This document shows, piece after piece, positions 18,005 to 52,886 of a DNA stretch of 64,000 nt (the stretch's first letter is position 1; the number at the start of each line of letters is the position of its first letter). Location: assembly GCF_021155765.1 (NCBI RefSeq), contig NC_060108.1:21539025-21603024 (forward strand), read 5' to 3'. The DNA is from Diprion similis. Taxonomy: Eukaryota; Arthropoda; Insecta; Hymenoptera; Diprionidae. Below the pieces are notes generated by a model. It did not search any database. It was not told where the DNA came from and saw only the letters and a program-made list of their open reading frames with translations. The position numbers were made by a program, and so were the translations under genes.

Positions 18005-18591
18005 TTAATTGTTGTATTCTCCAATGTATGCATTGCAGCCTGGGCAGTAATGCTTCTTGGACAAGCAGCTATCGATGCAGTATGGGCAAGGAGCACACGG
18101 CCAACAGCTGAAATTAAATGCAAAATTTTTCAAACGGTTATGCCTGTGCTATGACTTCCACTGAAATATAATTGGAAAAAATGAATTATCGAAAATCTCA
18201 CCCGAATATGCAGAGAAGTAGAGCGATTATGTGGGTTTTCGTTGATGAAGTCTGTTCAACGCGGGTCGCAATATTGGCACGGCAGTTCGGGCATGTCATA
18301 GATACAGAATCGGGCCCCAAAGCCGGTGTCTGGACGATGACCACGGCTGAAATTTGAAGAAGCATTCATTTAACAACTTTAAATCTTACATCAATAATGG
18401 ACGAAATTAATTTTGAACAATTCGGTGCTTCGTACCGCAGAAAATCGTTTCAACTGCGTTTTTATTTGAGAAACGAAAAGCAACGAGCAATTAGTTATAA
18501 TGTCCAATTACTTACAGGGTTGAGTCGACGGTGGGGGGCCGTAAGCGGGTGGCGGCACGAAACCGGGTGGAGGCATCTGGTTTTTGTCCAT
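18005..18591 (-). CDS. LITAF-domain protein (array member A)
   Basis: A small LITAF/SIMPLE-like protein of 107 residues, expected on the cytosolic face of late endosomes and lysosomes. Exons 18516-18591, 18202-18346 and 18005-18107, intron phases 1 and 2. The N-terminus is proline-rich with a PPAY motif (PPPAYGPPP), a potential ligand for Nedd4-type WW domains. The domain has the first knuckle CPNC (Cys44/47), THIIALLLCIFGC and further cysteines in the membrane-inserting stretch, and the second knuckle HYCPGC (Cys95/98). All four zinc ligands are present. A TTTCTTACAG acceptor just before the ATG (about 18,612) implies an untranslated 5' exon further upstream. It is the most conventional family member here and stands 16 kb from the rest. 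Confidence 0.93.
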
Positions 18592-21500
18592 TGTTCAAGG
18601 AAAATTGCCTGTAAGAAAAATTAAACACGTGATATTAAGAATTCATAGATCGACCTATTTAGTACAAGAATTTTAGGTCAACATAAGATCACGGTGGAAC
18701 AGAAACTCGAGCTAGAAATTCATTTTACGCAGACGTATTATTCCATAGAACTTATGTATTCAAGTTAAATTATATAATTAATTCACTCGAATAAAGTCGA
18801 TAACACTAGACACGTAATGTACGTTATGTAATAATAAATTATTTTCGTGAATGTTTTGACTTATTATTCTCCATATTTCCATTCGAATTAAACCATGGCA
18901 GACATTATTTGGGCGCGGGGTTCAAAGGTCACACCCAGCGCCGTCATTCTGACCTACAAAATCAATTATGGGAAGAGACCTTCGTGCCAGCGGACATTTT
19001 CCCTACTTTTTTTATACGTAGAGGGTGGCGTAATTGTGTCATGATGGACTCGCAACGATCTCACGGTTTTCGTTACAGGGCGTGGCAGCTGGGTCTATGG
19101 TTTATCGCGATTGACCCGGCAGCTTCGTATATTATGCTAACAGCTTTACGGCGAACTGTATCAAATGCCCGTATAAGAATTCTGCGAGAATAAAGTCCGT
19201 TGTACGGCGGTCAGCAAATTGCGTAAGACGCTATAAATATACATATAAATTTCTTTCCTCGTCCCTCTTCTCTTCTTCTTCTTCTTTCCTTTTCTATCCT
19301 TTCAAACGTTTAACGTATGTACAATATTGTGTGTAACGCTGTACTCTATTCGAGTGTTATTTTTAAGCTTCTACATCGAAACAGCAAGCTAAAATACCGA
19401 GGGGTGTTTCAGAGTCTGCTTTAGATCACGTTGTACATCCGAAAACGGCCCGGCAGCTATTCAAGATGTTTTTAGAACTAAAATGTATGATGAAGAAAAT
19501 GAGAACGATAAGAATTTGATTACACTGTTAAAAATGATTGTGAATTTTCTATACATTTACCGTGTAAAATAGTTGTCGAATTACAAAATTAGATTGCAAA
19601 TTTACAAATTCGGTGGGGCGATGTAAATTACTATGTAGTTGTTCTAAATTTACAGTAAAAATGTTTGATTTCACTTGAATTTATGTCAAAATCACAAAAA
19701 AGTAATTTTAATTTACTAATTTGAGTAGTAAATTTATTGTATTTGTAAATTGAACAAACGATGACCGTATGGTGAATTCAGTGTTCCGTATCCGAATAAA
19801 ACTTCCAATTCAGTGTAGGAAGTTCCATACAAAAAATTTGAACAGTGTGATAAAAAAATTCCTCAACCGTGATTAGTTCGAATTGATTTTATTGTTAGAT
19901 GGCAATTTGAATATTTTGACAAATGTGTAACGCCTGGAAAATTGAAATGCTAAGATAATTCTATTCCTCAAATATCATGGAAAAAACGATTAATAATGCA
20001 GTGATTCTCAATTAGTACAGCCTTCCTTTGATTTGTTGAAATTCAAAATGCGTCACACGATTCCATTGAAACCTCAGAAGCTGTTACAACTCGAGTTGTT
20101 CGAATTGTTCGAAACTACGATTTTGAGGATTGAAAAGAGTAACCTTGTTCAGATCACGGATGAAATCAAGCATTATACAGGATAAGTGGCGTTTACCTTA
20201 TTGGAAAAAATCGAATTGAAATTAAAGTTTCTATTCACAGGTTGTTAATTTGGTTCAAATGTGGCTGTAAAAAATGAAGCCATTCTGTTTTTCTGGGCAA
20301 TCCCAACTGCACGCCTGCTTCTCGAGTTGTGAAATCAATAATGATTCGATGCTTAATTTTTTATTCTATTCACGCGGTTTAGTCAGTGAGCTAATAAATA
20401 ATATATTTGACGTGCAGACTATCCTGCCCCCATAAAAATGTCGGCGATGATCTCGTCATGATAATAGAATGTCACGTCGTGTGAATAAATTTATCAATTA
20501 TTTACCTCAACCAAGAGGTGTTTCATTGAAGCAAAAGTTAACACCATGATTGCATAGTTCACGATTACTTATATTTTATAGTTATTACGAGAGGTTACTT
20601 GGCAAATAATTTTACTTTCATCAGGTGATTTCTCACGATTTTTTAGATTTCCTATTATTTCTTAAGATTATTGAAAGATTTGTCTATTCCTAAATCATTG
20701 CTCGTGACTACCAATGACTACTAGGACAGAATTCTGTTTTAATATTAATGACTTTTTTTGTGATTTCCGAGATTACTAAATTATTTCGAATGATATTGAC
20801 ACCATGATCAATTGAGTGGGAAATCCTTGATTTATACCATCGCACATCAGGAGACAACCAGCAAAATAGATATTGTAATGAAAATTCAAAACGAGAGATA
20901 TTGAATGATATTTACTGTAATCTGACAGGCAAACAAATCAGCACGTAATTTCTTCTGATAAAAGATAAGCAAGTGATTACGGTGTAGATATGATATCGTC
21001 TACTAGACAATCTATCCGTAGAACAACTTTTGAATGGAATGCGTGCAAGGTTAGAAGTTCATTAATGTGTTTATGAGAATGGAAAAAATCTTACACCGTA
21101 AAATTCTTCCAAATGGATATTTAATTAGACATCGTAACGACGCGATTGAGTTTCAGGTAAGCGACCGACACTACAGGCTTATCGAACTTTTCAAACGCTT
21201 TCCGACAAAAATACTGCTTCAAAATAGAATGCAACCTTATACGCGCAGTTATACCTCTCATGTAGTTGAATTTTCAACACCTGCATGTACAGTACAGATG
21301 TACATATACATTCGAATAATACATATATAGAGGATATAAAAGCGCGCGCGTTTGTGATTGTTGAATGCCTAGTCGGAATAACGAGAAGGATAAATCTCTT
21401 CGAGAAATAATATCCGCAAGATATAACATTCGGGCAGAGAATGCTTTTCTATAGATGTATATTCTTTGCTTTGAATTACAGGTTTCCCGTTTCTACGCTG

Positions 21501-22048
21501 GAGAATGTACCTATACGTATTTCTTCGATAGCGATAAGGTAAACCGTGAGCACACCTGCAGTCTCGATTCTACGGTATATGGCAGGAAAAAGCTCGTTTT
21601 TCAGTCATTGCGGTCACAATTCATATCTCGGTTACACTAAAGAAAAAAAAAATATTATTAAAATATTAAATATAATTTCAACGCCAAATCCATTGCCATT
21701 GTGGTCAGAGCGTTATTGTTATACTATGTATACACACGTATACAGTATAAGTATAAATACAAGTACGTTTGCACTTTAGTTCCTGGCGATCGATTTACCG
21801 AGAATTCTACGTGCATGGATTGCTCGTGTATCAGCTTATCACACTATGAAGCAAACGGGGAAAACGTATATTTGAATAAAATAATAATTCGGGAATTACT
21901 CGATGACGACAATATCGCACGATATTGAACTTTGGAACTCGATAATGTCTCTTCGTCTTCGTGGAATACATATTCGTGTAGGCATGTGACCTAGTAAACT
22001 GGTGAAAATTACACGCTGGCGTAGTTTTAAGACATATAAAATTACACC

Positions 22049-22268
22049 CTGGGGTAGAAACGACCCCAAAATTTTTTTTCGTTAATTTAAAGTACCTAAA
22101 TCTAAAAAAAATCTAGTCTGTAGCGCCATCTAGCAGTTTTCATATTTTGTCATATAACCTATATAATTTGAAAACGTGACTTTTCAAGAACATTATAAAA
22201 AAATTTCAAATCATAATGTTTAATAGTTGATTTTTCATAATGATTTTTGTCGCTGGGGTACAAACGAC
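22049..22268. repeat. Degenerate element bounded by direct repeats
   Basis: CTGGGGTAGAAACGAC at 22049-22064 recurs as CTGGGGTACAAACGAC at 22253-22268 in the same orientation. The roughly 190 bases between are AT-rich and non-coding, with a GCGCCATCTAG motif at 22123-22133. It is probably a remnant of a non-autonomous transposon or an old local duplication; I cannot name the family. Confidence 0.4.
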
Positions 22269-23560
22269 ACGAGTGTGTTTAGTGTGTAATTCCACAGAAA
22301 TGTGTCAGACAAGGATTGATAATACGATCACTACACGTCCGTTTTCACATCGATTCAATCTTCCACACTGCACTCAAGCGAACGTGAATATTTTGTAAGC
22401 GGATGTGACCGGTTCGATTATTAGTTGATGAGTAGTTGCTTCATGAAAATTCTAACTGTATGTTAAATACAGTCAGAGTGAACCGCGTAACCTTTATATC
22501 AGTAAACAAATTTCTTCTTTGCTCTTAACAGTACGGAGAGGTTAAAGATTAAAACAGTTTAGATTATTAGAAAAATTATATAAGTCTGGTATTTACGCAG
22601 AATTTAAACGACAGAATTACGTAACGCGAAATACTGATGAAAATAACAAGAATTATACTACATATTTTAAATGGATTCGACAATCCCTATATAATTATCT
22701 TTATACTGTGGGAAGTATATAATAGAGAGAAACAGAAAGGAAGAAAAGAAAGGGAAGAAAGAAACATGGAAAGAATACTGAAAACATAATTTGCGGGAAA
22801 TGTGATTTGATTTTCTCTGATAAGTTTGATTTGCGGGAAACATGATCTTAAGTTTCTTTTAAAGATGGAATAATATGCTACATTCGTCCCGCTTTTTAGG
22901 TGAAAAAAGTTAAAGTTACGATTGATTCGGGAATAAAATTCTTATGCGTATTTGGTGTGCTTATTGGTATGTACGTATGATGGACACGTTATGCAAATGT
23001 CGAGAGAAGCATGAAGGTTGTCCAGTTTGATAGCGTGCAATACAACTGTTGTATAGTAAATTTAAAAGTCTCGGTTACTTGATTGTCAATAATTTCGTTA
23101 TTTATATTTTTCCAACCGAATAAAAGAATTACTTCAAATAATTCTCTGCATTTTTTCATATCCCTCGTTTGCAATTTCCATTTAGTTTCCAGTGCGGGAC
23201 CGAAAAGATATCAAAACGATTATAACTAAAACCACAGCTTATTCTGCTTACAGCTAAGCGATTTGTCGAACATACTACGCAAATACGGCAAACAGAGATA
23301 CGGTACAAAAAAAATTATAACCACTCCAAGGAGTTTTGTCTCTGTTTATATTTGTTGATTCATGCGATTTATCTTTTCCAAAGATAAAGCTTCGCGCTGA
23401 TTTGTTTTGCGAACACCGGTGCTATGTATATAAGTACGTATACATATACGTTACATGTTGTGTACGCATAATTATAATAGATAAAATATTCGCGCAGAAT
23501 CTGAAACAAGTGTTAATATATTTAATGAGAACTTACGTCAACGTATATCATGCATAGGGC

Positions 23561-23578
23561 AAAAAAAAAAAAAAAAAA
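23561..23578. repeat. Poly-A tract
   Basis: An 18-base run of A with no gene context. It could be the tail of an old retroposed sequence, but no source is recognisable upstream. Confidence 0.8.
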
Positions 23579-25679
23579 CAAGAAAACGAAAAATTTCGAC
23601 AACGTATCGCGCAAGTTTATCAGAAAAGAGAAGACAATTTTACAGTGTAGGATTTACCGACAAAAAATTAATCCCCTGCACAAACATATAGAACATAAAA
23701 TTTTCAATACACGGTCTGTCGCAATTTTGCAGTGATTCTTCCTTTATTATTCTGTTTTACATTCGACATTGCAGCGATTATAACTAATCAGTCCCCACGG
23801 CGATGCAGTATCACGGTTTGGAAAAATGCGATAAGCCCGAACATCTACGGATAAATCGCGGTAGGAGAGTAAAAGCAATACTGCAATAGATAATATCGTC
23901 GCATACCTTGCAGTGGCCTGGGGCAAAAATAAAATTCTGAGTCGTTATAATTACAGATCGTATCGCTTCGTTGCGGGACAAAAGTTCATGTTAATGCAGT
24001 CTATAATCAATTCTTAACGAAGGTTTTCTATCCCCGAGCGCGGGAGTGTGAAATTCATTCTAGTAGAAATATTTGAAATTAGACATTTTTTATTGAAAAA
24101 TAAAATAATGTATTGATTTCTGAACTGATTAACGAAGGACCGTACAAAAAACCTTTGCCTTTATTCCAAACTGTTTTTCGACGTAAAGGGTTAGCGAAAG
24201 CCTGTAATCACATACGTATTATTATATACCTATATACTTATAATATATTAGCCGCGTGCAATCTTCAACAGGTGTCCCAGAAACTTTCACCCAGTTACAG
24301 TTTTAAATCACTATAGATACGCAACACGTGTGTACTTCGCATTGTCGTCAGGTATTGATGTAAGTGAAGAAAAATAAAAAAAATAACAATTATTTGTATC
24401 TAATTTACCGGTTTTACTTTTTACAAAAAAAATCTTAGCCTCATTCAACACGCTGATGTTTGACTGGATGTTATGTTTATTATGTGAAGCTTGGGCAGAT
24501 CGAATTGTTATTGTATTGTTAGAGACAAATGTATAGCTCTTCTCCTACATCAATTTTTAATGCATTTATTATTAAACTTGGGTGCTGCAACGCTTCTCAG
24601 TCTGTTTGATAAATATAAATCTTGGATACTCGTTAAGAAATGTTTAGTACGACCTTCAAATATTCCAAAGATCAATTCGTTTAAAACCAATAAAATCGAC
24701 TCGGATGAGAATAATGCGCCTAGACTGCAAAAGTGTCACGAAATTTATTTAAAGTTAAGAGTCTTTCGACGAAAATGGTAATCCAATTCAGTACGAAAAG
24801 GATTGATGTTAAGTGTTAAAAATTTTTTCCTAACTTGAGTGACTTTTAAATATACGTGACATGGTTTGATCTCTTCAAAATTTCTTGCCAGTTAAATATA
24901 GCTTTAGCTATAAATCTGATCGAATTTTAATCCTCGTTTTATTAACCGTATGTATAAAAAATATATGCATGTGAAAATGCATCTTTCCTCATATGTCGAA
25001 AGCACAGAGTATAATAAACATGAAGCTGAAGAGCCAGAGCCAGGAGCCAGAGTTGGCAGGCAAACGTGTTAAAATTTTTAGAAATAAAAAAATGTAGTTC
25101 AATTTTACCCTCATAATTCCACCAAATTTTCATATTCCAACTTCACGACCTACTATTCTGCAGTCAGCTTTAGCCTCGTAGTATAAACGACAAATTTCTC
25201 AAATCAAACACACGTATGTGTGAAAAGTTGACATTACTAGGCGGGTGTAGGGGTTTACATATTCGTCAAAAGGATTCGTCGATTTAATCAGCTTGTGAAT
25301 TGGTTGCTGTATGGCAAAATAGTGGAGGCATACACCTTCGTTATGATGGCGATGCGATGGCGCCTGTACGTCCCGCCGCTTGCGTCACCGCCGCAACAGT
25401 TTCTTTTTTTTTCTTTTCTTTTTTTCGTTTACTGTAGCTTCGAGACGTTGTATCATAGGTACAACTGTATACGATAATGCACACTACACAAATATCACGT
25501 GAATACAATATTTTGTCGAGGCTGTGTGCGTGTCTATCTATATATATGTATACACCTCTGCTCGGGCATTTCGTGTCATACATACAAATGTCGTATACAC
25601 CAAGTTAAACCGCATATAGGAATATTGTCTAGTGTTACGGAGAAACCTGTTTTAGAAGAGCTACCCGGCCGGGTTTTAT

Positions 25680-25682
<3 letters not shown>

Positions 25683-25766
<84 letters not shown>
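25683..25766. repeat. (CT)n microsatellite, about 84 bases
   Basis: A long, nearly pure CT dinucleotide run with one interruption (TTT near 25,750). It creates a spurious Ser-Leu repeat frame on the plus strand. On the opposite strand it reads (GA)n, the type of sequence bound by GAGA-like factors in insects. Confidence 0.95.
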
Positions 25767-28230
25767 AGTTTACTCGTATTTCAGCCGCGCTTCGTACATG
25801 CATACATGCTGAGATATCAGTGAAGTGAAAGAATTCCAAACTCTGCGCGATGCGCGCGCATTGCATGCGGCGACTTTAAGATGGAATCCCCGATCTTTCC
25901 GGCTCGGCAAGGCCGGCTTGGATCGCTCCGTTCGTTTCTACGCAGCGGGCGTGTTCTCCCAATCACGAATGCTTGCTTTATTTTTAATTCCTCTCGCACC
26001 GCCGTGTGCACGTGGCGATGGTGACCTCCGACTTGTTCGGCCATCTTGGGCCAACCAGTGGTTGGCAACGAGATACTCGGGTACCTGCAGTCTTATCTTG
26101 AAAGAATTCTAACTATCAACAGTTTCCTTCGACGCTTGGTATTTATTCCTCGCGCATTTTTCACCCTGCTGGATTGGGGTCGATGCGTCATTCCAACATT
26201 TCATCTGCCGTACAGCCTGAGATCACGTGGTACAGCATCTGTAGCTGTATCATCGAACTTCGCTTTTCGGCCTATCAAGAACCGCCCATGGTTTAATCTG
26301 ACCAAATGTATATTCTTCCCGTTTTAAATAACTAGGTTGCAGCGCCGCCAACGTTTCTTGGCTTTCATTTACAGTCATCAATCTGCGTGTATGTGGGTTC
26401 GACGAATGACACGTGACAAATGCGTGTCGATATGTGAAAGCACGACGACAGCCACGTCGGTGGTTACCAAGTCGGAAAAGTCAGTAGCTTGAGCACCGCT
26501 AAATTTGCAAAATAAAACTGCAGCTCCCTCAGGACGTTCAGAATTTTGGCTTGCCAATGGAAAACCGCAAATCTAAATACTCATTACGTTCTAGGTGAGG
26601 TTTGAGATCCTCGGATTAGTCCACGACTAGGTATTCTATATACGCCTTAATGTCAATGATCCCGTCGAGCCACGTATTTGTCTATACATTCCCACCAACA
26701 AACCAGCGAGTTTAAAATGTATAGGAATCATGGAGAACCCTGAGGCATTCCGTTGAGTCGACTTGATAATTCATAATAAGCACAAGGACAGTCTGTCCAA
26801 TGGTTTCCGAAATCAGTTCATACGATACATGACGAGTGCGTTGGTCGATTTCGACGTTGACGTATATGCATCCAAATACCAAAGTCCACGATCTCAATCG
26901 CGAAAAAAGGCTCAACAGCCCCGTTCTATACGCAATTATAAAGAAAAACACCCCACTTCATTTTCATTTGACGCAGAAATAAAGAAATCGCAAGGATTCT
27001 ACGGAATTGCATTAACAAATTCGTAGAATTCCTGTCATTTCTTCATTTCTTCATTTCTGTATCATCAAACGAAAATGTATTGGGAGTGTTTTCCTTTAGA
27101 AATGCTTACGGGGTGAGGCTGTCAAGCCCTTTCTTGCGTTCGAGATACGTGGAGATGGATGTTTGGAGATATATACGTAAACGTCGAAATAGTCGAGGGC
27201 ACTCCCTTAATTTTTCCGCCCTACTTGAACACGCGTCGACTACCGGTAACATCGTGTTTCGTGAGTCCACCATTGGAATGATCGAATATTTCGCGCGAGC
27301 GCAAACGTTACACGCATTATATGCCTGTTAATTTTAATCGATGACAGTACATACGTAGAAATTAGGTGACGTACAAAGATTCGGAGAAATGCATTAGATA
27401 AACGATGAAATTATCGCTATTTTATATCTTTTATCCGAGAGCCGGCACAGACTCTGACAATTAGTCGATGATCGTATGTTGTGAAAATGAATCATCCCGC
27501 GTTTGTTGTCGCTCATTATTCATTGTCAGCCTATAGATCCCATACCCCGGTTGTGTGTTGTAATCCACACGCGGCAGGGGGCGAATAAACGATCAAACTG
27601 TATACTATTCACGAAGCAATTAATTATAGGGAAACAATTGACAGTCTCGGAAAATATTCCGGACAGTTCATCTCAGGTTACATAATCAACCTAATCAACA
27701 GTCGACAAGTGTATCGCAATTCAAAACTGTTCCACCGAATGTATGAAACCAACGACTGCTAAGCGTAGCGTTCGAAAACTCATGGCGTGGCAACCTGATG
27801 CTAAAAATAATACAACGGCTGTTTACGTAAGCGCGAAGCGAGCGAAGGCGCACGCATGAACATCGTTCAGCAAGACGCATCGATTTCATTCAAAACTCGA
27901 TTTTCCCCGACGAAATTGTTGCAGGGATTAACACATAGAAGTATAAAAGACGAAAGAAAGATAGTGAGGAAAATTATACCGTTATCGATGGCCCAATTCT
28001 GTTTCCGATTGAGAAAAACATTCTCAATCCACTTCTATCTCTTATCATCATTTTTCATCTAGGATAATATTAGGTTTCGGGTCAATGATCGAATACTGTC
28101 AACGAGTGCCACTAATGCAGGGGATTTCACCCGAAACCGGCATTTGAGCATTTTTCTCTCTCTGTCTCCCTCTTTTTGTAAATCAAGAAAGGATATCCTT
28201 ATCCAGCATTGTTATGGATAAATAAAACTG

Positions 28231-28265
28231 ATCTATCTATGTATCTATGTATCTATCTATCTATC
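28231..28265. repeat. CTAT/TATG tetranucleotide repeat
   Basis: Short tandem repeats of ATCT with ATGT variants, non-coding. Confidence 0.85.
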
Positions 28266-28969
28266 ATATATCTATTTCTCACTCTATGATTGAATATCCA
28301 GTGTTCTACCAATGCCTCTGCAAATGTACATATGTAGTTGCATATCTATATAATTTTAACCGACGCCCGTGTTGTCCCGCATGGTCAACGAGACCTACTT
28401 TGGACCAAGTTTCTCGTACTCGATGTGAACAGCTTTTAAAAATTTCTCCACAACCCTGTGCATACAAAAAAGCACGTTGCCTTTGACGAGTGAAACTTTG
28501 AGAGGCAACTGAAGAGAAAAATTTGTAAAGTGACACAGACTGTGCTACGCACGTAATAAATACATCCGCAGGTACGCCAGCAAACGTCACAATCCCGGAG
28601 CAGTTGTGCTTCGGCAAAGAGAGACTCATCGAGTTACTTCTCTACAGTCGTCGTAAGCGTGCACGAGATAAGGAAATTCCAGCGCAGCAAAGCCGCGGTG
28701 CATTTCTGTATGCACATAAGCCGTAATGTCAACGAAGCCGGCCGGCCAGCTGGCATTTCTAAAAGTTGTTTATACCGAGTACCGAAACAAATTCTGCCCG
28801 AATCGCGTACCGTTATCCGTGCAATGCGGTATACAGACAAGATCGTCGACTCGCAGGCTCATCTTGATGGCACTTTCCTAGCTGAAGAAAGAATTTTTAC
28901 CGTCCTGCGTAGCAATTATATGTTCGAAGAATAAAAACGATATGAAAGACACTTGGGATTCTTTTTTTT

Positions 28970-28971
<2 letters not shown>

Positions 28972-29003
<32 letters not shown>
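28972..29003. repeat. (ATT)n microsatellite
   Basis: About ten tandem ATT units in the intergenic gap. Confidence 0.9.
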
Positions 29004-31513
29004 GCGCCCGAAGGCAATTCGCAGGCCGTTCGTTATACGAGTGATTTCTTTGTCTTCACTAACCTGGGACAATTGTTTGGAATACTTCGCTCGAAAGCTG
29101 TGCGTACCGGCGTAGTTCTTGCAAGTGACTGTTGCGGCGATCGTAGAGACGACGCTCGGCTATGAAGCGAGTTTGCTTCGATGCTGGTCGTCCTCCCCCC
29201 TCCTCGGGATGGTGGGGATACCAGAGCTAGATAATATCGCCACCAGTACCGTCTTTGGGAAATTTTGTTTCTACGCAACCGGCTTTCAATGATTCCCAGA
29301 ATTTTTGACGTCCCGTTTCTTCTGTTTCCTTTTTTTCCTCTCAGCTTAGTTCAAGGTCGTTGTGTTGCCGGATTTTTGTGATTTTGGTCCTAACCTACGC
29401 GGTTTCTCCAATCTTGAAAGTCTTGCTTTGAATTGTTCAGTGCGAAATTACAAACATTCGAAGAAAAATTATGTCATCTTGAGAATGAATGAATGGATTT
29501 GAATGAAAATTGGTACTTTTTTTGAGGTTTTTTACTCACTGATCGCGAATGTATAATCAGATTTCTAGAATTTTGATTTCGAGTATTCAATGCTTAAAGG
29601 TTATTTGGGTCGCTGATCGTGAACTCGACATTCGGCTAGCAAAGTTCGAATGAGATAGTGACATTCTTATCATTATCATTCAGGTTATTATTAGTTTAGA
29701 TTGAAATGAGTTTAAAGGCTGGAAGTTTATAGACCCGCACAACTTACAGTTTAAAAAAAAATCAAATTGCGTTTCCTTGAATGTGTTATTATCTAATCGT
29801 CCTTCCGTTGCGTCATTTGACCGTTATTATACATATACGTTGGCTCTTAATTATTTATGCAAATTGTATTCAATGATGCCGAAGCTAGTCGCCGATGTAC
29901 AATTTTTATTCACACTTTTTTTCGGTACGATATTCAATTCGAAAGTATTTCATGCAGACGATGTTACTCTGGAGTGACTCATAGATACGGGCATATTTTG
30001 AGAAACATCGGCATGACATTACAGTCCCATATTTTTTACTAGGGATTTGGGGGACAAGAACAGGAGCGGCTTATGAACTGAGCGGACTGGGTGACGGTCT
30101 ATGGGCCCCAGCCCAGAGGGCCTCATTTGCTTCTTTAGTTGAATATTTTTAAAATTATTTCAAACTAATTGTATTTCTTAGTGAATAATTTTGGTCATAT
30201 GAAAACAAAAATAACATCAATAAATAGACATTGAATAAAATCTTGTATGGTGATGATCTAGTATATGGGATGAGTTTAGTTTTCTTGAGACTAAAATCTC
30301 GGCAGCGTTTTATCACAAAGTTGTAACTTCAGTGAATTTTTATTTACTAAAATGAAAACTTTTTTCCGGGATCACGAAGTGTCTACGGCCGTCGATTAGG
30401 AGTCACTTGATTCTTTTCTACATAAGAATGATGGTATCACAATTTTTTAACGCTAAACGTAAAAGCATTCCACAAAAAGAAAATTGAGTAGGTATGCGGT
30501 TTCAACCAATGACGTTAAATTTGAATAGATAAGAATTTTGCATTAAAAAAATCTTACAATTCCGACAGATGTTCCCAAACGAAAGTGATAGAGAGTTAGA
30601 ACTTCGAAAAAATTAGATCACGTATGTTTGGTGCAATAGAAATACGAAAACAAGCGTGTCGTTGTGAAACCCAATTCATTTTCACTGCCAATTAACACAA
30701 TTAAGGAATATATGAAACAAGACCCTGTGAAATGTGTCAGCCTACAGGCACGATCAACCTATGACTCGGCCCTGAATAGGCAGGTAGAGGAATAGAAAGA
30801 GAAACTACGTAGTGTTATCTCCGTTTTTCCTCACTCTGAACCCTAGACGAAGGGAAAATCTGGTGCCCCATTGTGGCGCCACTCTCTTATAGATCGTTGC
30901 CATGGTTCCAGAGGAAATTTGGCAACTCCTGTGAACTCCGGAATCAGCTATTACGAAGCCAGCGTGCGCGCTGACGCCAAGCATCGATCCGATGCTTTTT
31001 ATCATCTAAGCTAAAGAGAGACGAAATTTCACATTCAGAAATCGTGAATGGCTCATTTTTCTTTCTTTTAAGAACGCTGTTGGATTGTTGATGGATTTCG
31101 CGAGTATTTGATCAACGACGAAATAATTTTTTATATTCTTCGCTATAAACTTTTACCATGGAGATGATCGAACTATGATTATTATAGCGGATTTGATGAT
31201 TACATGAATATACTTACGTATAAACATAAGTCAGACACTCGTTCACGTTTTGATATCAATCGTAAATTTTTTCTTATCAGCGATGTACTGCGAGGAAAGT
31301 TTTATGACTATTCAAGTCTATTTATGCACTCTGACTAGATGATAGACGTTACTAGTTGCGTGATCTCGTGCATTTTATTTTCTGATAGCCCTTATCTAAG
31401 AGCCACCGGATACGTGAGATCGGACAGTCGGAAATTACGTCTGTTCGTTACTGAAATACAGTAACATTCTACGTTTGATTGAATCATCGCACCGATAACG
31501 CTCACAATCAGTA

Positions 31514-31535
31514 GGGGGGGGGGGGGGGGGGGGGG
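31514..31535. repeat. Poly-G tract (22 G)
   Basis: An uninterrupted run of 22 G, very unusual in this AT-rich background and able to form G-quadruplexes. Such runs can also be length-inflated by sequencing or assembly. Confidence 0.85.
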
Positions 31536-32934: not shown

Positions 32935-33109
32935 CGTCCAAAAACATTGACTGTCAGAGCAGAAGACTGGTCATGACGTAAGCTGTGACGCCGATTTTTG
33001 CAGCTTCGAATTTAGATATTATTTACAAATATCATTTTATCTGTAAACATCAGCTTTACAGTTTACACCACTACCAGCCTTCTGTTCTGACGGTCAATGT
33101 TTTTGGACG
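32935..33109. mobile_element. MITE-like element with 37-base inverted repeats
   Basis: The left arm (32935-32971, starting CGTCCAAAAACATTGAC) is matched by the reverse complement of the right arm (33073-33109) with only a few differences. The 175-base unit is non-coding and would fold into a hairpin with a roughly 100-base loop. This structure fits a miniature inverted-repeat transposon; no target-site duplication is obvious, and the superfamily is unclear. Confidence 0.65.
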
Positions 33110-34347: not shown

Positions 34348-36675
34348 TTAAAAGAGCTGCTCGTTGTATACTCCAACGAAAGAGTTACATTTGTGGCAAA
34401 AGTGTTTTGTTGCCAGACAGCTGTTCGCGCAGTAGACACACGGCGCGCAGCACCAGCATCTGAAAATTACGAATATGATTAGATATGAACTCATAAATAT
34501 AACATGATACAGTGAATTCATTGAAATTTAAGTCGACCGCACGAACTTCGATACGTGTATGTTTCATGAGAATTTTCTGACGCATTGTACAAACTATAAT
34601 ATTTGTTTTTCACACCCCATGTACTGCCCCATAACAGGATCTTCAAATGTTAAATATACGCTGGATAAATATATATTTTGTCGATAATTGGTCTGTTGTT
34701 ATTACTCCCGCTTGTGGGCGTGAAACACAGCTTCCGAGTTTCGTCGAATACATTTTGATCCGTTTCTTTAGAGAAAAAAAAATTGAATCTTGGAGATTCT
34801 TAAGAGGGTTTTAACAGAAATTGCTTACCCAACTAGGCAAAGGACAAGGGCCATCAAGTGTGTCCTGCCACTAGCTCCTCTCTCCGTTCTGGTGACACCC
34901 TTCTGGCCGCACACGTGACAGGTAACCATGCAAGGATCAGGACCCACGTTTGGAGTGGTGGTGAACACGTGTACAGAAGCACCTGCGTATAAAAATTGTC
35001 TTAAATTAGTTGGTGTGACATTTTTCTCGATCACAGGATGATATCTGTCACATTCTAGCGGCGAAAATCTGATGGAGAATCAAAATCATCGATGATGAAA
35101 TTCGAGCAGCCTGTTCCTTCATTCGTACCTCTGACTTCCGCCATTGGAACACGAAAAAACAATTTACTACCGCGTCGACAGAAAATAATTATCAGCATGA
35201 GTTACACAGTGCATAGAATAATCGAGTCCAAAAAAATAATCGAACATAACTCAATTGAATCGGTATAAATTAATCGATTATTTCGTATTTTTATGAAACG
35301 GTGCACGTGAAACCCAAGTCTCGTACATTTCAGTATTTAGTCTTAATAGCGGAAATTTTTTTTTGTTGAATTATGGTTTCATTCAAAATATTTTTTAATT
35401 TCAGGTGAAAAAATTCATTTGTCATTTGATTTAATCCAACAATCGATTATTTTTGGTCAGTCGTATGAGTTATCACTTGATTTTAAGTACAGCCTATACA
35501 ATCCTCCCAGTTTATTATTGAGATGCCACATACCATTGGCATGATTCAGACTGACAATGAGCTGGGCAAGAAGACACTTAAGCATTTCCTAGTCATTTAG
35601 CCGAAATTGTTTGGAAATATTTTCCTCCATCGGTAGGTAAACAAGTACGTGATTTATATAATGGCACAACATCGCTTCCGGGCATTTCGGAAAATCCAAA
35701 CACCCATTATATGCAGAATATACATTGTTGGGGTGGACTATATTTCGAGCACTCTGATCTAGGGCATCGATCGACGCGTCAGGGCCGATTAATGATGTAG
35801 GTAGTATTTCGAAAACAATACTACGGTCATGCAACACTTACATCAGGATATTAAACAACACGGTTAGATACCGCATTTTTATCTTATCGCTGGTTTACTT
35901 TAGATAACAATTTACGCTTGGGCTTTCAGAAATGAATACCGTTTCGAAAATACGCTCAATCTTTTCCAAGTGAATAAAAAATATACCATGAGCCGCGAAT
36001 AAATAATGAAATTAACGCTCTCGAATCGTATAACTGACTCGTGTAGGAATATCTTTTTTTTACACTATTTTCCTCAACCACAGATGGGGAAAAACTGGTC
36101 GTTTCACAATTAAAGTGAATGTAAAAAATGAGTGTGCAGATTACTTTCTTCACGGTAGCGCCACAACCGTTTCGTTGTTTCAAAATTCAAAACAATTCGG
36201 CACACGATCTGCCGTATAATACATAAAAATAATACAAACTCCTAAACCAAGTGTACCAGTTATTGTCACCTTTAGACCCAATTATTGAACCTTTCATTTT
36301 CCAATATTATAAATTTACGTCGAAAATTGTGAATTTCTCGATAACAAAGACCAACTGCTGGAGGGTTGGACACTGGAAATTTATTTTTTGGTAATCTTAG
36401 AAACAAGGATCAAACCTTTGTAACCAAAAAAGGTCAATCATTGGAACAGGGTCCATAACTGGTACACTCACCTCAAATCACCTGAAATTTCTGAAGCAAA
36501 ATTCGATCGTGGAATATCACCTAAAGTGAAGAAAATATTTCCACTATAGATTATAAAGCGTTTCACCTGGTTGAATGTTGACTGGTTGTGCCGGCGTGTA
36601 GGCGACTCCACCACCTGGTTGAGGGATCGGCTCAGTCGTGGGATTGTAAGGCGACGCATTCTCTTGATGATGCAT
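34348..36675 (-). CDS. LITAF-domain protein (array member B)
   Basis: A 124-residue LITAF-like protein. Exons 36567-36675, 34829-34982 and 34348-34459, intron phases 1 and 2, with a long first intron of about 1.6 kb. The N-terminus (MHHQENASPYNPT) is proline-rich but has no PPxY. The domain begins GASVHVFTTTPNVGPDP, has the first knuckle CHVC (Cys58/61), then THLMALVLCLVGCW, and the second knuckle HFCHKC (Cys109/112), where the usual proline is a histidine. The tail is VGVYNEQLF. All four cysteine ligands are kept, so zinc binding and endosomal membrane association are expected. A phase-compatible alternative first exon lies at 35129-35144. Confidence 0.92.
35129..35144 (-). other. Candidate alternative first exon of gene B
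   Basis: ATG plus four codons and one base (MAEVR, G) followed by a GTACGA donor, inside the first intron of gene B. Splicing to the exon at 34829-34982 keeps the phase and gives MAEVRGASVHVF, a form without the proline-rich N-terminus. It would need its own promoter. The signal is short, so chance is possible. Confidence 0.35.
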
Positions 36676-39418: not shown

Positions 39419-39996
39419 CTACCGATATCGTTTGGGCCTCAACTGTGGGTAACTTCTGGAGCAACAGTCGATGCAGAAGGCGAACGGTATCCAGAACCAG
39501 CACAACCTGAATAAAATTGAAACCTTTTAAAACAGGTATATAAAATGCTAAAAAATTTACTTCACCAAAAAGTTTACTACCAAATTTACAACGGCTGATA
39601 TTGACGAAACCTGAAATACGACTTACACTATACAACAGGCAGCCTTGATGCTTTCTCCCGACGTCAAGTGGTAGTTCGGAGAGTTCTCCGAAATTTGTGG
39701 ACCAGGACCAGTTATGACTTGGGTTGTTACAGCTGAGTAGGATCGGAATAATGATCCGGAAAATTAGTCGGTACGAGTATTAGATTTTCTGAATATCATA
39801 AAGTTGATCTGTCGTTACGCCAACCTGGAGGATTTCCCGAAGTCAAAGCTGGAGGCTCGAGGGGCGGCGGAGGTGGTTCGTCCGCCATTGTCGGTTTGTA
39901 GAGGGTGTAAGGTGGTGGCGGATCGTCCGTAAGATTTTCACGATTTGGTGCAGAACTGCCAGCCGTTGCCGTTGCCTCTTTCTCCTTGTTGATCAT
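39419..39996 (-). CDS. LITAF-like protein without the zinc ligands (array member C)
   Basis: Three exons, 39825-39996, 39627-39732 and 39419-39506, with the family intron phases 1 and 2, encode 121 residues. The N-terminus is proline-rich with PPPY at 27-30 and further Pro-rich runs. After the phase-1 intron comes VTTQVITGPGP, which aligns with the domain start of the neighbours. The first CxxC is absent (ISENSPNYHLTSG in its place). The hydrophobic centre is recognisable (ACCIVLCWFWIPFAFCIDCC, 89-108), but the second knuckle is replaced by a basic end, SRSYPQLRPKRYR. It should still insert into membranes and offer a PPxY, but cannot form the LITAF zinc site. It could be a derived functional adaptor or a decaying copy; intact splice sites and frame favour function. 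Confidence 0.8.
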
Positions 39997-41124: not shown

Positions 41125-41606
41125 CTAGCAGCAACAGAGGTCGCAAGGTCCGCACCCTAGACAGAGTCTGGAATCGATGAAAAGTAAAATAAATAAAACG
41201 GTTCAAGCTCATACAGGTAAAAGAATGAATAAATAAAAGCAAGATAAAAATCGGAGTAAAAATCGCCAAAATTTCAACCCACCCTAAACAACACCCGCAG
41301 CAAAGTGCCGACTCCGCACTCATTCCCGTTGACCGTTGCTGTTCCTGGGCGGGAACCACGTAAACCGTCGTACCTGTCATGGGCAAAAATTATAGTAGAC
41401 ACGCGGCACGGACTTGAAATCAATCAATGACCATCGACCTGGTGCAAACACCATTTACTCGAAATTACGATACCTGGGGGTGGCTGCTGCGTAATTGGCG
41501 GGGCACCGTAAGGCGGCGGAGGACCGTACATCGGATAGCCTTGAGGCGGAGGCGGCTGATTGCCGTACTGCGGATTGTACTGGTAATTGTTATTCCCGGA
41601 GTACAT
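41125..41606 (-). CDS. PPxY protein with cysteine-rich tail (array member D)
   Basis: An 88-residue protein from exons 41474-41606, 41283-41373 and 41125-41167, intron phases 1 and 2. The N-terminal 45 residues are Pro/Tyr/Gln/Asn-rich with PPPY at 30-33. The segment after the first intron, GTTVYVVPAQ, mirrors GTTVHVITNV of gene E. Instead of the two zinc knuckles it ends in a tail with 11 cysteines in 20 residues (69-88, ending CDLCCC), which looks palmitoylatable and resembles the cysteine-rich tails of CYSTM-type proteins. The shared intron phases, position and segment similarity suggest descent from a LITAF-like gene. The alternative acceptor at the internal TCTAG would change the tail to a non-cysteine frame, but the CCAG acceptor used here gives the better model. 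Confidence 0.8.
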
Positions 41607-42920: not shown

Positions 42921-44112
42921 TTAACGTATATACTTTCCTTGATAGGATTTACAGCTGGGACAGTAGTGTGCAGTGTCGAGACAGGATTCCGTGCAGTAGA
43001 CGATAGGAGCGCAGGGCCAGCAGCTGAAATACGGACGAGGATGAAAATTTTTGCATAATTCTCCTGACGACTGTTTAAAGGAGAAATTTCGGAGATGGAT
43101 AATGGATGCTTTGTACTTTCGAACTACGAGTCAAAGAGTTATGAGCGATTTGATGAGATAAATATGGCAATTAAAATAAGACACTATAATGTTAATTAAA
43201 AATTAGATGTTGACGTGATCTTAACAAGTAGCGCATCTTACCCGAACATGCATAAAAAGCATGCCCACAAGTGCGTTCTAGTAGTCGGCTGCTTAATGAC
43301 TACGCTGCTGACCGTGCGATTGCACTTGAAACAAGTCATCGTTATTGGTTCCGGTCCAAATGGGGATACATTAGTAATGACATGAACTGTTGTCCCTGGA
43401 AAATGACGAGACGGAAATGAACATAATTTTGAAATTTTTGTAACTCTGATCATTTGAAAAAACAACACCTCTTATTATTTTCAATATTTTTGCAACCGGG
43501 GTTTAATTTTCATTCACGATTAATCGAGGATTAAAAACAGATCCGCTTAGTCGACGATAATTCTTTGTCATCTGATTAAAATACTTATCGAAATATAATT
43601 GATAACATTGATTTCTAGAATTTCTCGTCATGAACCTACGAGAATTGAGCTAAACCCACAAGTCATTTTACAAAAATTTCGTTTCACCCAGATTTCTGCA
43701 AGTACTATATGCTAAAGGAGCTTGCCACCTTGGCATGAGTAGTAGGTAATCGGTTTGTAAATCTCATGGACCTTGAAACCAAGATCAATACCTACATCCG
43801 TTCCGTTATCCACATCTATAACTTTTCCGCCATCAAAGTACCTTTGCTATGGTCGTTATACTGTGTACATATTACTTGAAAAATTCATTTCACTTGAAAA
43901 ATTTAACAAAATCGACGCTGATTGTGAGTACCTGGCTGCTGGGTGATGACGTGTGACGTCACGTTTGCGCCGTGAGGATGATATTGGGGTTGTTCAGTAT
44001 ACGGGGGTAACGTAGAAAGCGGTACCGAGGTTCCCGTCGTCTGTCCCATCGGTGGAGAATATGGGGGTGGCTGCTGGTTGATAAATCCAGGAGGAGGCGG
44101 TTCCTTGTCCAT
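42921..44112 (-). CDS. LITAF-domain protein (array member E)
   Basis: A 145-residue protein. Exons 43932-44112, 43242-43395 and 42921-43023, intron phases 1 and 2. It starts MDKEPPPPGF, like MDKNQMPPPGF of gene A, and carries PPPY at 15-18 plus a second LPPY. The domain starts GTTVHVITNVSPFGPEP, has the first knuckle CFKC (Cys82/85), THLWACFLCMFGCWPCAP, and the second knuckle HYCPSC (Cys133/136). Both knuckles are intact. Expected role: PPxY-containing endosomal membrane protein that can recruit WW-domain ubiquitin ligases. Its middle exon has the same length (154 bases) as that of gene B, suggesting close relationship. Confidence 0.93.
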
Positions 44113-46421: not shown

Positions 46422-46853
46422 ATGTCCACACCAAATCGATCCTCACCTCAATCCACAACTGGGAATGAGGCTCGTAAGTTTGTTATATCACCGATCTGAC
46501 CAGTTATCATTCGACCCTTGATTTTACCTGGATTTTTTTCAGGTAATCACCATAGTCCGAGTATAGCGTACTGCCCAACGTGTAGGAAGAACGTTATCAC
46601 CGAAGTGAAAATATCTTATTCGAAGATTGCACACATTACTTGCGTCCTTTGTGTTATTTTTGGGTAAGTGCTGATGGGATCCAATATCCTCTTTCGTCAA
46701 TTGATACAATTTTTCATCTATAATCGCAGCTGTTTCCTCGGATGCTGTCTTCTTCCGTATTTCTCGATGTGCTTCGTCACCGCAAAGCATTACTGCCCGG
46801 AATGCGATACTCATTTGGCATCTCACAACTCTATCCTGGAAGTTTTGCACTAA
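46422..46853 (+). CDS. LITAF-domain protein, short N-terminus (array member F)
   Basis: A 98-residue protein on the plus strand. Exons 46422-46473, 46543-46663 and 46730-46853, with two very short introns (69 and 66 bases) in phases 1 and 2. The N-terminus (MSTPNRSSPQSTTGNEA) is short, Ser/Thr-rich and without PPxY. The domain has the first knuckle CPTC (Cys28/31), then AHITCVLCVIFGCFLGCCLLPYFSM, and the second knuckle HYCPEC (Cys80/83). The tail is LASHNSILEVLH. It is close to a minimal LITAF domain and is one of only two array members on this strand. It converges with gene G. AATAAA lies at 46929-46934. Confidence 0.92.
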
Positions 46854-47178: not shown

Positions 47179-49427
47179 TCACCAAGGCGTGTAAGTTCCC
47201 AGGTAAGTTCGACAAATCGGGCAATGGTGATGCGTACTCTTGCAGGAATCGATGCAGTACGGGATCAAACAACACGGCCAGCATCTGCGAATCGTTATAA
47301 TTTACCGGACTCGTTATAACCTTATATGCCGTCAAATTTTCACACCAGGTGTTCCGTGTTTGTAGGCTTAATGGTCCGGGTACTGACTGAAAATGTTAGA
47401 ATAAGGGCGTTCAACTTTACCCGCATAGAAAAAGTACCAATGCCGAGATATGGGTGATGGCCGATCGTCGAGCTTCGATTGCGGTGACAACGACTGTCGC
47501 ACATCTTGGGCAAATGGTTGCGGTGGGCCTCGGCGGCCAGGCACCCCTGTTCGCTGGAACCAGGACTTTCATATCATTTCTGAAAGCGAGTTTGCCAAGT
47601 CGGAATAATGGAAAGCAAAACGGAAAAATTGAAAAGAAAAATGCCCGGATTCCAACGAGTCTGACGTTCCTGAAGCTTTACGAATATATGTGATGAGAAA
47701 ATGAGAAGATTAATGTGGTGTATTACGAGTCACTGAAATAATCTGTTCCATCGAATACGGAGACACGCAGAGACCTTGGGCTTGGGCATAACTAGGCGGA
47801 GGTATTGGTGCTACGAATGAGGTGACCGTGTCGTTGGAGAGTCTTGGTGGTAGTGGGATGCTTGATTCGGTGTAGAGCGATCTCTGCTCTCTAAATATTC
47901 CCGAATACGTTGGTGGTGGTCCCATGGTGTAGGGTATCAGATCCGGCTGCGGGATGAGGAACGAGGAAAAGAAGAAAAGAAGAAACAATAACAAGGAATA
48001 CTCCCGAGTCTCGTTTTAATTCCATCTACTCCATACCTCTTCTCCCTGAGGGATGTTTCGTCGGAAGCAATTTCCACAGCTCCATCGATTCTCTGGCCTC
48101 CTTCGTTGTAAATTCAGCAAGCTTCTTTGGCTGTTAATTGAAGGTGGTGACATTGTAAAATTTGGTAAGCCGGGTGTCGTCACAGGAGACGAACTTGTCA
48201 CGGCAATTGCCGAAGTACCTGTTGATTAATTATACGCAATTTGCCCCATACGCTTAACACGGGAACACCGTCTAAATTTCACCTATCGAGGATTTTTGCA
48301 TCTTTGGAATAACGACGATGAATAGACTGTTGATGCGCTTTTGGGGTTGATTCCGGACAAAACGAATACCACCAACTGTATCAACTAATTAGGTCAACAC
48401 AATATTAAATGTTACCACCTTCAATAAACGTGATTGGATTCCAGCGATTCGGTCATTTCCTAAATCTATTTGAACGTTTTCAAAATACCTCAAAAACCTT
48501 TCACACTCGCCTCTTCTGAACATCTAACAACTGCTAAATAACCAATCTAAATTAATTCGTTGCCATTTTTCAAGTAATACAGCGACAGTGAAATTCAGGC
48601 GGTTTTCCCCGAAGTAAAAATTTGCATAAGAAAATCTTTACTCGGTTCAACATTGATGTAGCGAATGGGATGTTCCTGCTCAATGACGTCCAGCAGCAGA
48701 CTTCTGGCATCCGGAGTCCGAGTGCCATAGTCAGTGGTCACGGTCAATACTTCACTTTTTGGTCCAGAGCGGTTGGAAGAGACAGAGGTAGCGATCTGCA
48801 TGACATTCATAGGGAGCGTCGAGGACCTGGTCGATGTCAAAGAGGGGTGCGGGGGCGTCGCCTGCGTGGCGGCTTCGTGGCTGAACTTCACAGTCACCTG
48901 TAAGAATTGAAAATGCTGGAAGAATCATCTACAGGAACAGAACAAAAGATAACAAAGACTTACCGCCTCGACTCTAAACTGCGAGAATACAGATTTAACT
49001 ACACTTGTGGAAGGTTCGGGACCTTCTATCGTTCTGGAAGGAATTTCAGCTTCCAATATTTCCGGTACTTCTAACGGGGGTTTTTGATTCTCCTCGTTAG
49101 ATTTGGACATCGTAACCCCTATCAACGTCAATGGTGTCTGCGTGCCGCGTACAGTGTGCTTGAAAGTTCCTGGCGAAGGATTCATAGGGTACTTGATTAC
49201 CGCTTCTAACGATTCAGGAACTTTTTGCACCGCATCGAAGTTGCGACTTGTCGGAGGCGTGGACGTTGAACCTGGAAATTAACGCCGTCAGCTACATCAC
49301 ACGGTGCGTCTAGCAGTTTACTTTACTTTATTATAGTACCCGTTGCTTCAGCGTTACAGAATTCGTTGCAGTCTTGGGTAATCGCGGAGCCATTGTTAGA
49401 GGCGCTGGGTTCCTGATTGGCCTCCAT
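47179..49427 (-). CDS. Long LITAF-domain protein (array member G)
   Basis: Seven exons, 49340-49427, 48964-49271, 48642-48897, 48037-48218, 47727-47946, 47421-47553 and 47179-47284, join with matching phases into 430 residues, about three times the family norm. The first 280 residues are Ser/Thr/Pro/Glu-rich and look disordered. Then come PPTY (289-292) and PPSY (328-331), the first knuckle CPRC (366/369), a hydrophobic stretch [27 protein letters not shown], and the second knuckle HHCPIC (417/420). The last two introns have the family phases 1 and 2. A shorter form could start at the ATG of MGPPPTYSG (47923-47925), giving 145 residues. The LITAF part is certain; the full N-terminus is a model. 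Its start codon is only 22 bases after the stop of gene H. Confidence 0.82.
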
Positions 49428-49449: not shown

Positions 49450-49925
49450 TCATTGCCGAATGCAGGTATTGTGGTTTGCAGGAGGAACTTTGCGAACAGC
49501 TAGATGATGGAGTTTAGTCGAGGCAATTGTCCTGTAACATTTCCTGTGCCTCAAAAATTTGTTGCAATCGGAACCCGTCAGTATCTCAGGTGGGATTGTC
49601 ATCAGGCAAAGAGGGCACTTGTGTATCGGATTTTTGCCGAGCACGGTGAAATGCGGGATGAAACACAAACTGTGAAAAGGTGTAAAGATTGGCATAGAGT
49701 TAGGCGATTATGAGAAAAAGAGATCAAATTAAAGGCTTGGAACGAGGGAACGGTTATTAGAACGTAAGAAGGTAATAACCAAAATGGACACAGAAGCCTG
49801 CTCATGATATAGGTGAACGAGGATGACCCATACGTAACAATAGTCATGATTTTCTCCTCACAAACAGGGCAAACTACCACAATTGGTCGGTAGGACGAGG
49901 GCATGAATTTCAGGAGTATTCCCAT
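49450..49925 (-). CDS. LITAF-domain protein without N-terminal region (array member H)
   Basis: Two exons, 49780-49925 and 49450-49669, joined in the family phase 2, encode 121 residues. The protein starts almost directly at the domain (MGILLKFMPSSYRPIVVV). It has the first knuckle CPVC (Cys19/22), a hydrophobic stretch with CPFWCLCFIPHFTVL, and the second knuckle HKCPLC (Cys67/70). After the domain is an unusual 51-residue basic tail with additional Cys and His (RHRKCYRT, KLHHLAVRK, NHNTC). The family's first exon and phase-1 intron are missing. No PPxY is present. It is immediately upstream of gene G on the same strand, so co-transcription is likely. Confidence 0.85.
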
Positions 49926-50194: not shown

Positions 50195-50987
50195 CTAGGG
50201 GTGATTCTGCCTCTGGGCTACGTACGGCGAAGTTCTGCCAACGAGGATAACACGAGAACAGATCGGACACCTGTGCCTCGGAGTTCTCAACACGTTTGTG
50301 AAACGTGGTAACAAACATAAGCTGCGACAACGTCAGTACGTGATTGTCATTTGGTATTCACGAGGTGCTCCTATCGTTCAAACTCAAACACACAGGGGCC
50401 AAATTTCAGGAATCCAACCAACGAATAACGTATATGTATGTAATACCAGATTGTAGGCTACACTTCACACTGGGTTAACGTTAATTTTGTCTTTTTGGAA
50501 ATTCACCGTTTCCATTACGTCCGCCAATGGGTTTGAGAGTAAACTTATCAGACATCCAGCTACGCAGGAATATACGGTAAAGTAGAGATCAACATGCTTA
50601 CCAACATGGTAGAAGAACGGTGCTGAGCAAGGACATGTACCATTTTGGCCCTGGGTCCGCTGCTGCATGTACATAATAATTGCAGTGTGGGCAAAGTATT
50701 GCAGCGGAGGTTGCACCGTTGATATGCCGATTTGTCACATTATCCGGAGAATATTTATCCTCCCAGTAAACGTTCTTACAATCGTTTACGTCCCTGTGCC
50801 GATTATAGTTGTCGAGATCTTCTAGACTCTCAGAGTTTTCGTCGCTGTATATCCATTCTTCCGATGGATTACCTGGCTCTCCGTCGCACAAGCTGCATCT
50901 GTCGTGATACTCGTCGCAATCACGCCTCTTATTCTTGTCTTGGGAATAGTCGTAGTATTTTCGATCGAATGGTTCTAATTGCGCCAT
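50195..50987 (-). CDS. LITAF-domain protein with acidic N-terminus (array member I)
   Basis: Two exons, 50602-50987 and 50195-50321, joined in phase 2, encode 170 residues. The first 95 residues are hydrophilic and strongly acidic (EEWIYSDENSESLEDLDN) with many Tyr and Asp and an extra CSLC pair (31-34). The domain follows: first knuckle CPHC (Cys99/102), MSLLSTVLLPC, then CLCLLPRF and the second knuckle HRCPIC (Cys147/150). The phase-1 intron seen in most neighbours is absent, as in gene H, so H and I probably share a recent ancestor. No PPxY is present. It is head-to-head with gene J, about 1.1 kb apart. Confidence 0.87.
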
Positions 50988-51276: not shown

Positions 51277-51301
51277 TGTGTGTGTGTGTGTGTGTGTGTG
51301 G
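51277..51301. repeat. (GT)n microsatellite
   Basis: About 12 GT units in the divergent spacer between array members I and J. Confidence 0.9.
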
Positions 51302-52080
51302 TGGAAATTTCAAAGCAGTATAGATTTTAGGTAAAAGGAATTGAAACCAACCTGTTTAGCCCGGAAGAGTTTCGAAGAATTTGGAAGGATTCTAGTACTT
51401 GGTCACAGGATAAGAAAGTGTTTTTATTTTTAATTTATATTTTATGATTTCGAAACTGTGTAATCAGTGTCTGGACGTTTTTAAATTAATTTCGAATTTA
51501 TCTTTGGTTATTCAGACGTGTCGAGACGTCTGCATCTCGATGCTGAAGTCATTGCCACGAGAATTTAGTGTCACTGAAATCTGTGAGAACAGCGTTGACG
51601 TAACCCGACAGATTTTTCTGCGACTTGCGGCACCCTTCAGGGTATTTTCACACTTCCGACTTTTCGTCGATTTGCAAAGAAGCCGCAAACGGGCCTGTCA
51701 TTTATAACTCGTGACATAAATAATTCAATAGCGACTGTAAATAAGACGGACGAGTTGGACCTCCAGCGATATGAAGTCACAAGTAACACCCGAGGAAGTA
51801 CGTCCAAGCGGTAGCAGCTATCGTGCGTATAAATTCAAGGCTGGCATAATCTAGATAAAGAATTGTAAACCCAAGCGTGATATCCAGAAATGATGTTCGA
51901 TCACAGTGATTAGCAATGTTTGTGTACGGCTGAGTGCGGCGAATGCAGAATGGTTGTTAACTTGTGATTAGCATTGTGGAAAGGTAAAAAAACAAACGTA
52001 CGGAAAAGAAAATTAACAACATTTTCTCTGGATAATTTCTGTCCTCCGAAGAAGACTCATCCGCGGAAACGATCAAGGAG

Positions 52081-52886
52081 ATGGGAAGTCTGACCGAAAC
52101 CGGAACTGCTGACAGTTCGAGCGGCGGTCAAACGATCGTCGAAGGATTTGTACCGATTAACGACAACGATACCTCGACTGGCGACCTGAGGTTTAAGAAA
52201 TTCTCAACACGTTCGTCCTGGAAATATTTGCACGGTAATAATAATAACGTCCTGATTACGAACTTTCTTCCAGATTGGATCCTGAGTACAAAGGGTGAAC
52301 CGTACGTTCAATTTCCTGTTTTCAGAGCATACAACCCTTGGGCCACGACTGGCCACAATGACTTGCCCAAATTGTCTTATGGCCATTCAAACCGCTGTCC
52401 GATACGTCGAAACTAGTCAAACTCACTTGGTTGCGGTCTGCCTATTTCCTTTAGGGTCAGGACTTATTTATTATTTGTAAGGATTGTGATTTGACCGGAA
52501 GTTAAGCGAAGAGAATTTAAGGGCCAGATCCAATCCAGAGATATTTGGCTACCACGATCAACGCTGCAGAGTTTAAAAACTAGCCCTTAGTCCATTGTTT
52601 TCAGGGGAGAAGTATTACAGCTCATTAATTTATACCCCCGAGGGATTTATTCACCCTTCCAAAGCCCCGAACATCATTCGATCGCAATCCACCCTAGTCA
52701 GTCAACGTCAGTCGTTAAATCTTCGGTATTCTCTTCTGTTACAGTTTGTGCCTTTTCCCCTACTGCACACCATATTTTCGAAACGCCGAACACTACTGTC
52801 CCATGTGTGACGTTTATTTGGGTACTTGTTTTGCCAAAGGAATCAACGGCATGGAATGCTGTCGTGACAAATCCGCGAACGAATGA
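52081..52886 (+). CDS. LITAF-domain protein (array member J)
   Basis: A 141-residue protein on the plus strand. Exons 52081-52234, 52326-52455 and 52745-52886, intron phases 1 and 2. The N-terminus (MGSLTETGTADSSSGGQ) is Ser/Thr/Gly-rich with a basic patch before the intron and no PPxY. The domain has TTLGPRLATMT, the first knuckle CPNC (Cys65/68), THLVAVCLFPLGLCLFPYC, and the second knuckle HYCPMC (Cys113/116). The tail adds several further Cys (GMECCRDKSANE). The donor of intron 2 (GG|GTCAGG) is weak, but the same phase-2 position is used throughout the family and the acceptor (TTACAG) is good. Confidence 0.9.

Follow-up and report, generated by a model that had tools for sequence, protein, structure and literature searches.

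What are the ten small genes crowded into one part of a Diprion similis contig, and what has become, in each of them, of the two parts of a LITAF protein, a proline-rich front bearing a PPxY motif and a zinc-held membrane anchor? The window analysed here is a stretch of 64,000 nucleotides (NC_060108.1; C4:21539025-21603024) from a 269-Mb genome of 60 contigs, in which an initial annotation had placed ten genes within 35 kb, all sharing the LITAF hydrophobic core and differing widely at their ends. From reading frames and splice signals we rebuilt ten gene models (A to G and I to K) that together fill exactly positions 18005-52886 of the window, with F and K on the plus strand and the other eight (A, B, C, D, E, G, I and J) on the minus strand. 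At least one complete open model was obtained for each of the ten genes, in agreement with the earlier count, and the divergence of the ends was borne out as well: PPxY occurs in A, C, D, E and the first exon of G and in none of B, F, I, J and K, B being proline-rich without the motif, J carrying an acidic extension and I a long tail. Both modules are thus combined in three of the ten genes (A, E and, if its PPxY exon is used, G), the zinc anchor stands without PPxY in five (B, F, I, J and K), and PPxY stands without a zinc site in two (C and D). To the reading of this locus as an old cluster built on a two-module gene plan and divided in these proportions, including the roles proposed below, we assign a probability of roughly 55%.

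In the proposed plan, a phase-1 intron would part a flexible first exon, which may hold PPxY, from a membrane anchor encoded by two exons with a phase-2 intron between them, its hydrophobic segment set between two cysteine pairs that would coordinate one zinc. The PPxY motif would be a site for the WW domains of Nedd4-type ubiquitin ligases. A single zinc is bound by human LITAF, whose two termini are both cytosolic and whose membrane association is prevented by either C96A or C148A (PMC5095921). Through its PPSY motif, human LITAF binds NEDD4 and directs it to endosomes (PMC5142333). By analogy with this protein, the sawfly proteins may act as endosomal membrane adaptors (PMC5095921, PMC5142333), and zinc binding, monotopic insertion and WW binding are predicted for the eight zinc-bearing members. 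A, E and G would then recruit ligases to endosomal or lysosomal membranes, and the anchor-only B, F, I, J and K would occupy the same membranes with other partners or none. Because losing one zinc cysteine abolishes membrane binding in human LITAF, C and D would need another anchor; if made, they might tether ligases by a different one, perhaps through acylated cysteines, the acylation being a guess.

Comparison with Pfam revealed that eight of the ten models (A, B, E, F, G, I, J and K) pass the zf-LITAF-like family (PF10601) at 30 to 82.6 bits against a cut-off of 23.8, so that the membership first claimed for all ten had to be narrowed to these eight, C and D matching no Pfam family. Each of the eight has CxxC, a hydrophobic stretch and HxCxxC, with all four zinc cysteines kept. 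A hydrophobic 19-residue stretch is present in all ten models (mean hydropathy 1.58 to 2.51), which argues against the view that these proteins are chiefly immune transcription factors, the sense in which the mosquito literature names LL3, a Plasmodium-induced 'LITAF-like transcription factor' (PMC3475675). Monotopic membrane insertion was demonstrated for human LITAF and CDIP1 (PMC5095921), and we consider such a role very improbable as the main one for the array. In the 1 kb preceding each of the ten start codons, no NF-kB-type site was found; because only 0.8 would be expected by chance, this count says little.

The exon structure links the ten models to one another. A phase-2 intron inside the membrane segment was found in all ten and in two LITAF-domain genes outside the array, on contigs C2 and C3. 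The codon that it interrupts encodes glycine in A, B, D, E, F, G, K and the C2 and C3 genes, cysteine in I and J, and valine in C, whose intron sits one codon farther from the CW motif than in the others. Seven models (A, B, C, D, E, F and K) have a clear phase-1 intron before the domain; in G one is possible through a weaker acceptor, and I and J have none. The C3 gene has this intron before the domain as well, and the C2 gene has it further upstream. Both introns fit eight genes, these seven and, through its weaker acceptor, G, with the phase-2 intron displaced in C.

A family search of the genome yielded 16 exon matches, 12 of them in the array, where they covered seven of the eight zinc-bearing genes and missed J, and four in the two genes on C2 and C3. 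The genome was searched exon by exon and only the best candidates were scored, so the resulting figure of at least ten LITAF-domain genes, eight of them in the array, is a lower bound. Protein searches of the genome with A, C, D, J and the C3 gene gave no further convincing LITAF member. With eight of ten such genes inside the array, the clustering is not a matter of chance. LITAF profiles also gave no convincing extra domain half in the approximately 15 kb between A and B (about 18600-34340). Among the weak matches, one at 8477-8533 of the window was rejected, having an E-value of 0.12 once C was removed from the profile and no gene visible around it; three in the genome (L010, L028 and L029) looked unrelated or of low complexity on reading, and two (L009 and L030) were set aside after partial inspection.

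When 37 kb around the array were compared with themselves by blastn, no non-self match was obtained at E-values up to 1e-3, and the LITAF domains of the array and the two outside genes are only 21-48% identical, indicating that the cluster is old. The proposal that the genes duplicated locally and that their ends then diverged thus fits the clustering and the shared introns, with the qualification that the duplications are not recent. A domain phylogeny, which had also been suggested, gave a tree with long end branches in which I+J and A+(E,B) were each recovered at 92/92, and none of the seven inner branches passed both support limits. Judged from its sequence, the array is an old LITAF-family cluster that arose by local duplication.

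Genes C and D, in which the zinc site is absent, are the less expected members of the array. Gene C (39419..39996, minus strand) has a PPPPY first exon (39825-39996) followed by exons 39627-39732 and 39419-39506. Its product runs from M...DDPPPPY... through a GPGP-containing linker into a hydrophobic segment and a short basic tail, the last at the place expected for the second cysteine pair. It retains a C-W-x7-C-I-D-x-C segment spaced as in A and G; it has no HxCxxC, and its sole CxxC lies inside the hydrophobic segment, and it fails the zf-LITAF-like family. Gene D (41125..41606, minus strand) likewise has a PPPPY first exon (41474-41606), followed by exons 41283-41373 and 41125-41167 that encode a TTVYVV linker and a cysteine-rich end with ten cysteines in the last 20 residues; it has neither HxCxxC nor a Pfam match. 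The in-frame codon scores of C and D (30.9 and 31.1 bits) were the highest of the six frames and on a par with those of the best members.

The alternative to LITAF descent is that C and D represent different small membrane proteins with PPxY (D one of the CYSTM1 kind) and lie in the cluster by chance, leaving the eight zinc-bearing genes as the family; we regard this as a substantial, though minority, possibility. Because the gene models were our own constructions, we listed the phase-2 exon joins that a fixed set of splice rules allows in the window and in 20 control stretches, each 10 kb long. Every join was then scored, at the junction, against the eight zinc-bearing genes of the array and the C2 and C3 genes. 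The window gave 1,844 joins, of which 1,630 remained after the 214 touching exons of the eight members were dropped. Among these, gene C ranked first (56), followed by three joins of its last exon with other donors (47) and by gene D (41); all others scored 37 or less, several of them using the last exon of D. None of the 5,250 control joins reached 41, the best scoring 38, and the true members, left out in turn, scored from 42 (K) to 127. Gene C moreover follows the LITAF gene plan in having phase-1 and phase-2 introns and similarity across the phase-2 join, with the intron one codon off; when its domain was compared with ten LITAF domains, a best score as high was seen in 1 of 5,000 shuffles and a summed score as high in none of 5,000. 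Gene D has both introns of the plan and matches E across the first junction (ITQQ..PGTTV; 0 of 5,000 shuffles), but this stretch was chosen after sight.

Several results weigh on the other side. Neither C nor D matched any Pfam family at E-values up to 1 or up to 10. Against the two-module reading as a whole stand the poor donors of I and K and a search of solved structures, which returned only two chance-level matches (E-values of 0.38 and 0.74). Both genes were missed by blind profiles: in a leave-one-out profile the last exon of C ranked 855th when composition was corrected for and 19th when it was not, and whole-protein profile scores of 0.9 bits (C) and 7.6 bits (D) fell below the inclusion limit. 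The domain of D did not differ significantly from its shuffles (p = 0.33 for the best score, 0.046 for the sum). The join scores, too, came mostly from the last exon, which alone contributed 47 of the 56 in C and 37 of the 41 in D, where it is the cysteine-rich exon. Whole-protein shuffles gave small p values for both (for C against E only 0.018), but such shuffling scatters the proline-rich stretch and these values were not relied on. Sequence comparison makes C a probable, and D a possible, LITAF gene lacking the zinc finger.

Gene D calls for comparison with the CYSTM family. We take it to resemble vertebrate CYSTM1, and its PPxY N terminus, TTVYVV linker and cysteine-rich hydrophobic end are of the CYSTM/CYSTM1 type; it differs in having LITAF-type introns and no match to CYSTM (PF12734) at E-values up to 10. 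A separate CYSTM-like protein with a TIYVV linker (17.3 bits against a cut-off of 25.2) is encoded elsewhere in the genome (L011, C3:4905766-4906023, minus strand), and its existence favours the chance-neighbour alternative. That gene, however, reads through both intron places, with linker and cysteine-rich end in one exon, unlike gene D, whereas C and D have the LITAF phase-1 and phase-2 introns. We tentatively propose, as a rather doubtful extension, that C and D are descendants of LITAF genes in which all four zinc ligands have gone but PPxY and the exon plan survive, and that a cysteine-rich segment now serves to keep Nedd4-type ligases at membranes; proteins of the animal CYSTM1 kind could share that route from LITAF. 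Titles and abstract openings of the papers found on LITAF together with CYSTM or CYSTM1 do not relate the two families.

The other eight genes differ in how much of the plan they display. On the minus strand, gene A (18005..18591) has a PPxY first exon (18516-18591) and domain exons 18202-18346 and 18005-18107, with both cysteine pairs and a Pfam score of 82.6 bits. Gene E (42921..44112, minus) is similarly built, with a PPxY first exon at 43932-44112 and domain exons 43242-43395 and 42921-43023 (62.1 bits). The first exon of gene B (34348..36675, minus), at 36567-36675, was located by scanning for proline-rich exons that end in a phase-1 donor; it has no PPxY and is in frame with domain exons 34829-34982 and 34348-34459 (61 bits, or 59.7 bits including the first exon). 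Gene F (46422..46853, plus) has a short first exon without PPxY (46422-46473) and domain exons 46543-46663 and 46730-46853 (61.3 bits). Gene J (50195..50987, minus) combines an acidic N-terminal extension and the first domain half in one exon (50602-50987), followed by exon 50195-50321 (30 bits).

In three genes, features of the models could be read as signs of decay. Gene G (47179..47925, minus) has a first exon with two PPxY motifs at 47775-47925 or 47727-47925, a domain exon from 47553 to 47421 and a last exon at 47179-47284 (80.4 bits for a model starting from 47579). Its two open models, from two candidate donors and both phase 1, exist only through an acceptor 26 bases downstream of the best-looking one; the acceptor at 47579 is out of frame, and four other exon combinations are broken. 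Gene I (49450..49925, minus; exons 49780-49925 and 49450-49669; 42 bits), which has no separate N-terminal exon and a long C-terminal tail, uses a poor donor (GTTATT) and has a codon score of only 4.1 bits, not the highest of the six frames. Gene K (52081..52886, plus), with a first exon without PPxY (52081-52234) and domain exons 52326-52455 and 52745-52886 (57.1 bits), also has a poor donor (GTCAGG). If several members, I and K first, were decaying or unexpressed, the diversity of ends would in part be a product of decay. We think this unlikely, because all ten genes have complete open models despite the age of the copies, eight keep all four zinc cysteines, and the codon score of K (14.0 bits) is the highest of its six frames.

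Clusters of LITAF genes have been published before, and the array itself is therefore a further case of a known kind. Anopheles gambiae has four LITAF-like genes, LL1-LL4, in about 50 kb, and an expansion in Diptera is published as well (PMC3475675); as there, several LITAF-domain genes share one stretch, ten in the array here against four. In the array, PPxY is lost in five genes and the zinc site is absent from two. In Helicoverpa armigera, 13 LITAF genes are grouped on four chromosomes, with five on chromosome 20, four on chromosome 10 and three on chromosome 5 (PMC13113599). Low-complexity N termini are likewise confined to some members in that species, but a C-terminal LITAF domain is reported for all 13, and the portion of that report considered here mentions no zinc-less members (PMC13113599). 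Human LITAF/SIMPLE and CDIP1 join a proline-rich PPxY N terminus to a zinc-held monotopic anchor (PMC5095921, PMC5142333), the arrangement seen in A, E and G; unlike them, none of the ten array models contains a P(S/T)AP motif, and seven of the ten are without PPxY or the zinc site. By title, nothing on point was found for LITAF in Hymenoptera. Loose literature searches for zinc-less or tandem LITAF genes show little; zinc-less LITAF genes were not found among the matches listed, and we do not claim that they are unknown.

A survey of the LITAF domain describes the two cysteine pairs as strictly conserved and the proline-rich-plus-LITAF architecture as kept across eukaryotes except apicomplexans, which was read as both parts being needed (PMC5142333). 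Six of the ten neighbouring genes here are without one part: the cysteine pairs are absent from C and D, and the proline-rich PPxY front from F, I, J and K. B has the prolines but no PPxY. It is this parting of the two LITAF modules, most of all in C and D, that merits a specialist's check. If expressed, these genes would be natural variants for asking what each LITAF module does, and C and D would test whether a LITAF-type anchor can work without zinc.

Between G and I, at 48595-49278 on the minus strand, lie two open frames, perhaps separated by a phase-0 intron, which might be an extra gene. The likeness of this pair to LITAF is faint and by eye; it gave no Pfam match and is not among the listed profile matches, and it was rejected as a member of the family. 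Outside the array, the minus strand carries genes at 5727-8445, for a tetratricopeptide repeat protein that is presumably IFT56/TTC26, and at 12733-13608, for nibrin (Pfam NIBRIN_BRCT_II), both animal-type neighbours. At about 25576-25770 there is a long simple repeat whose opposite frames translate into SL or ER runs.

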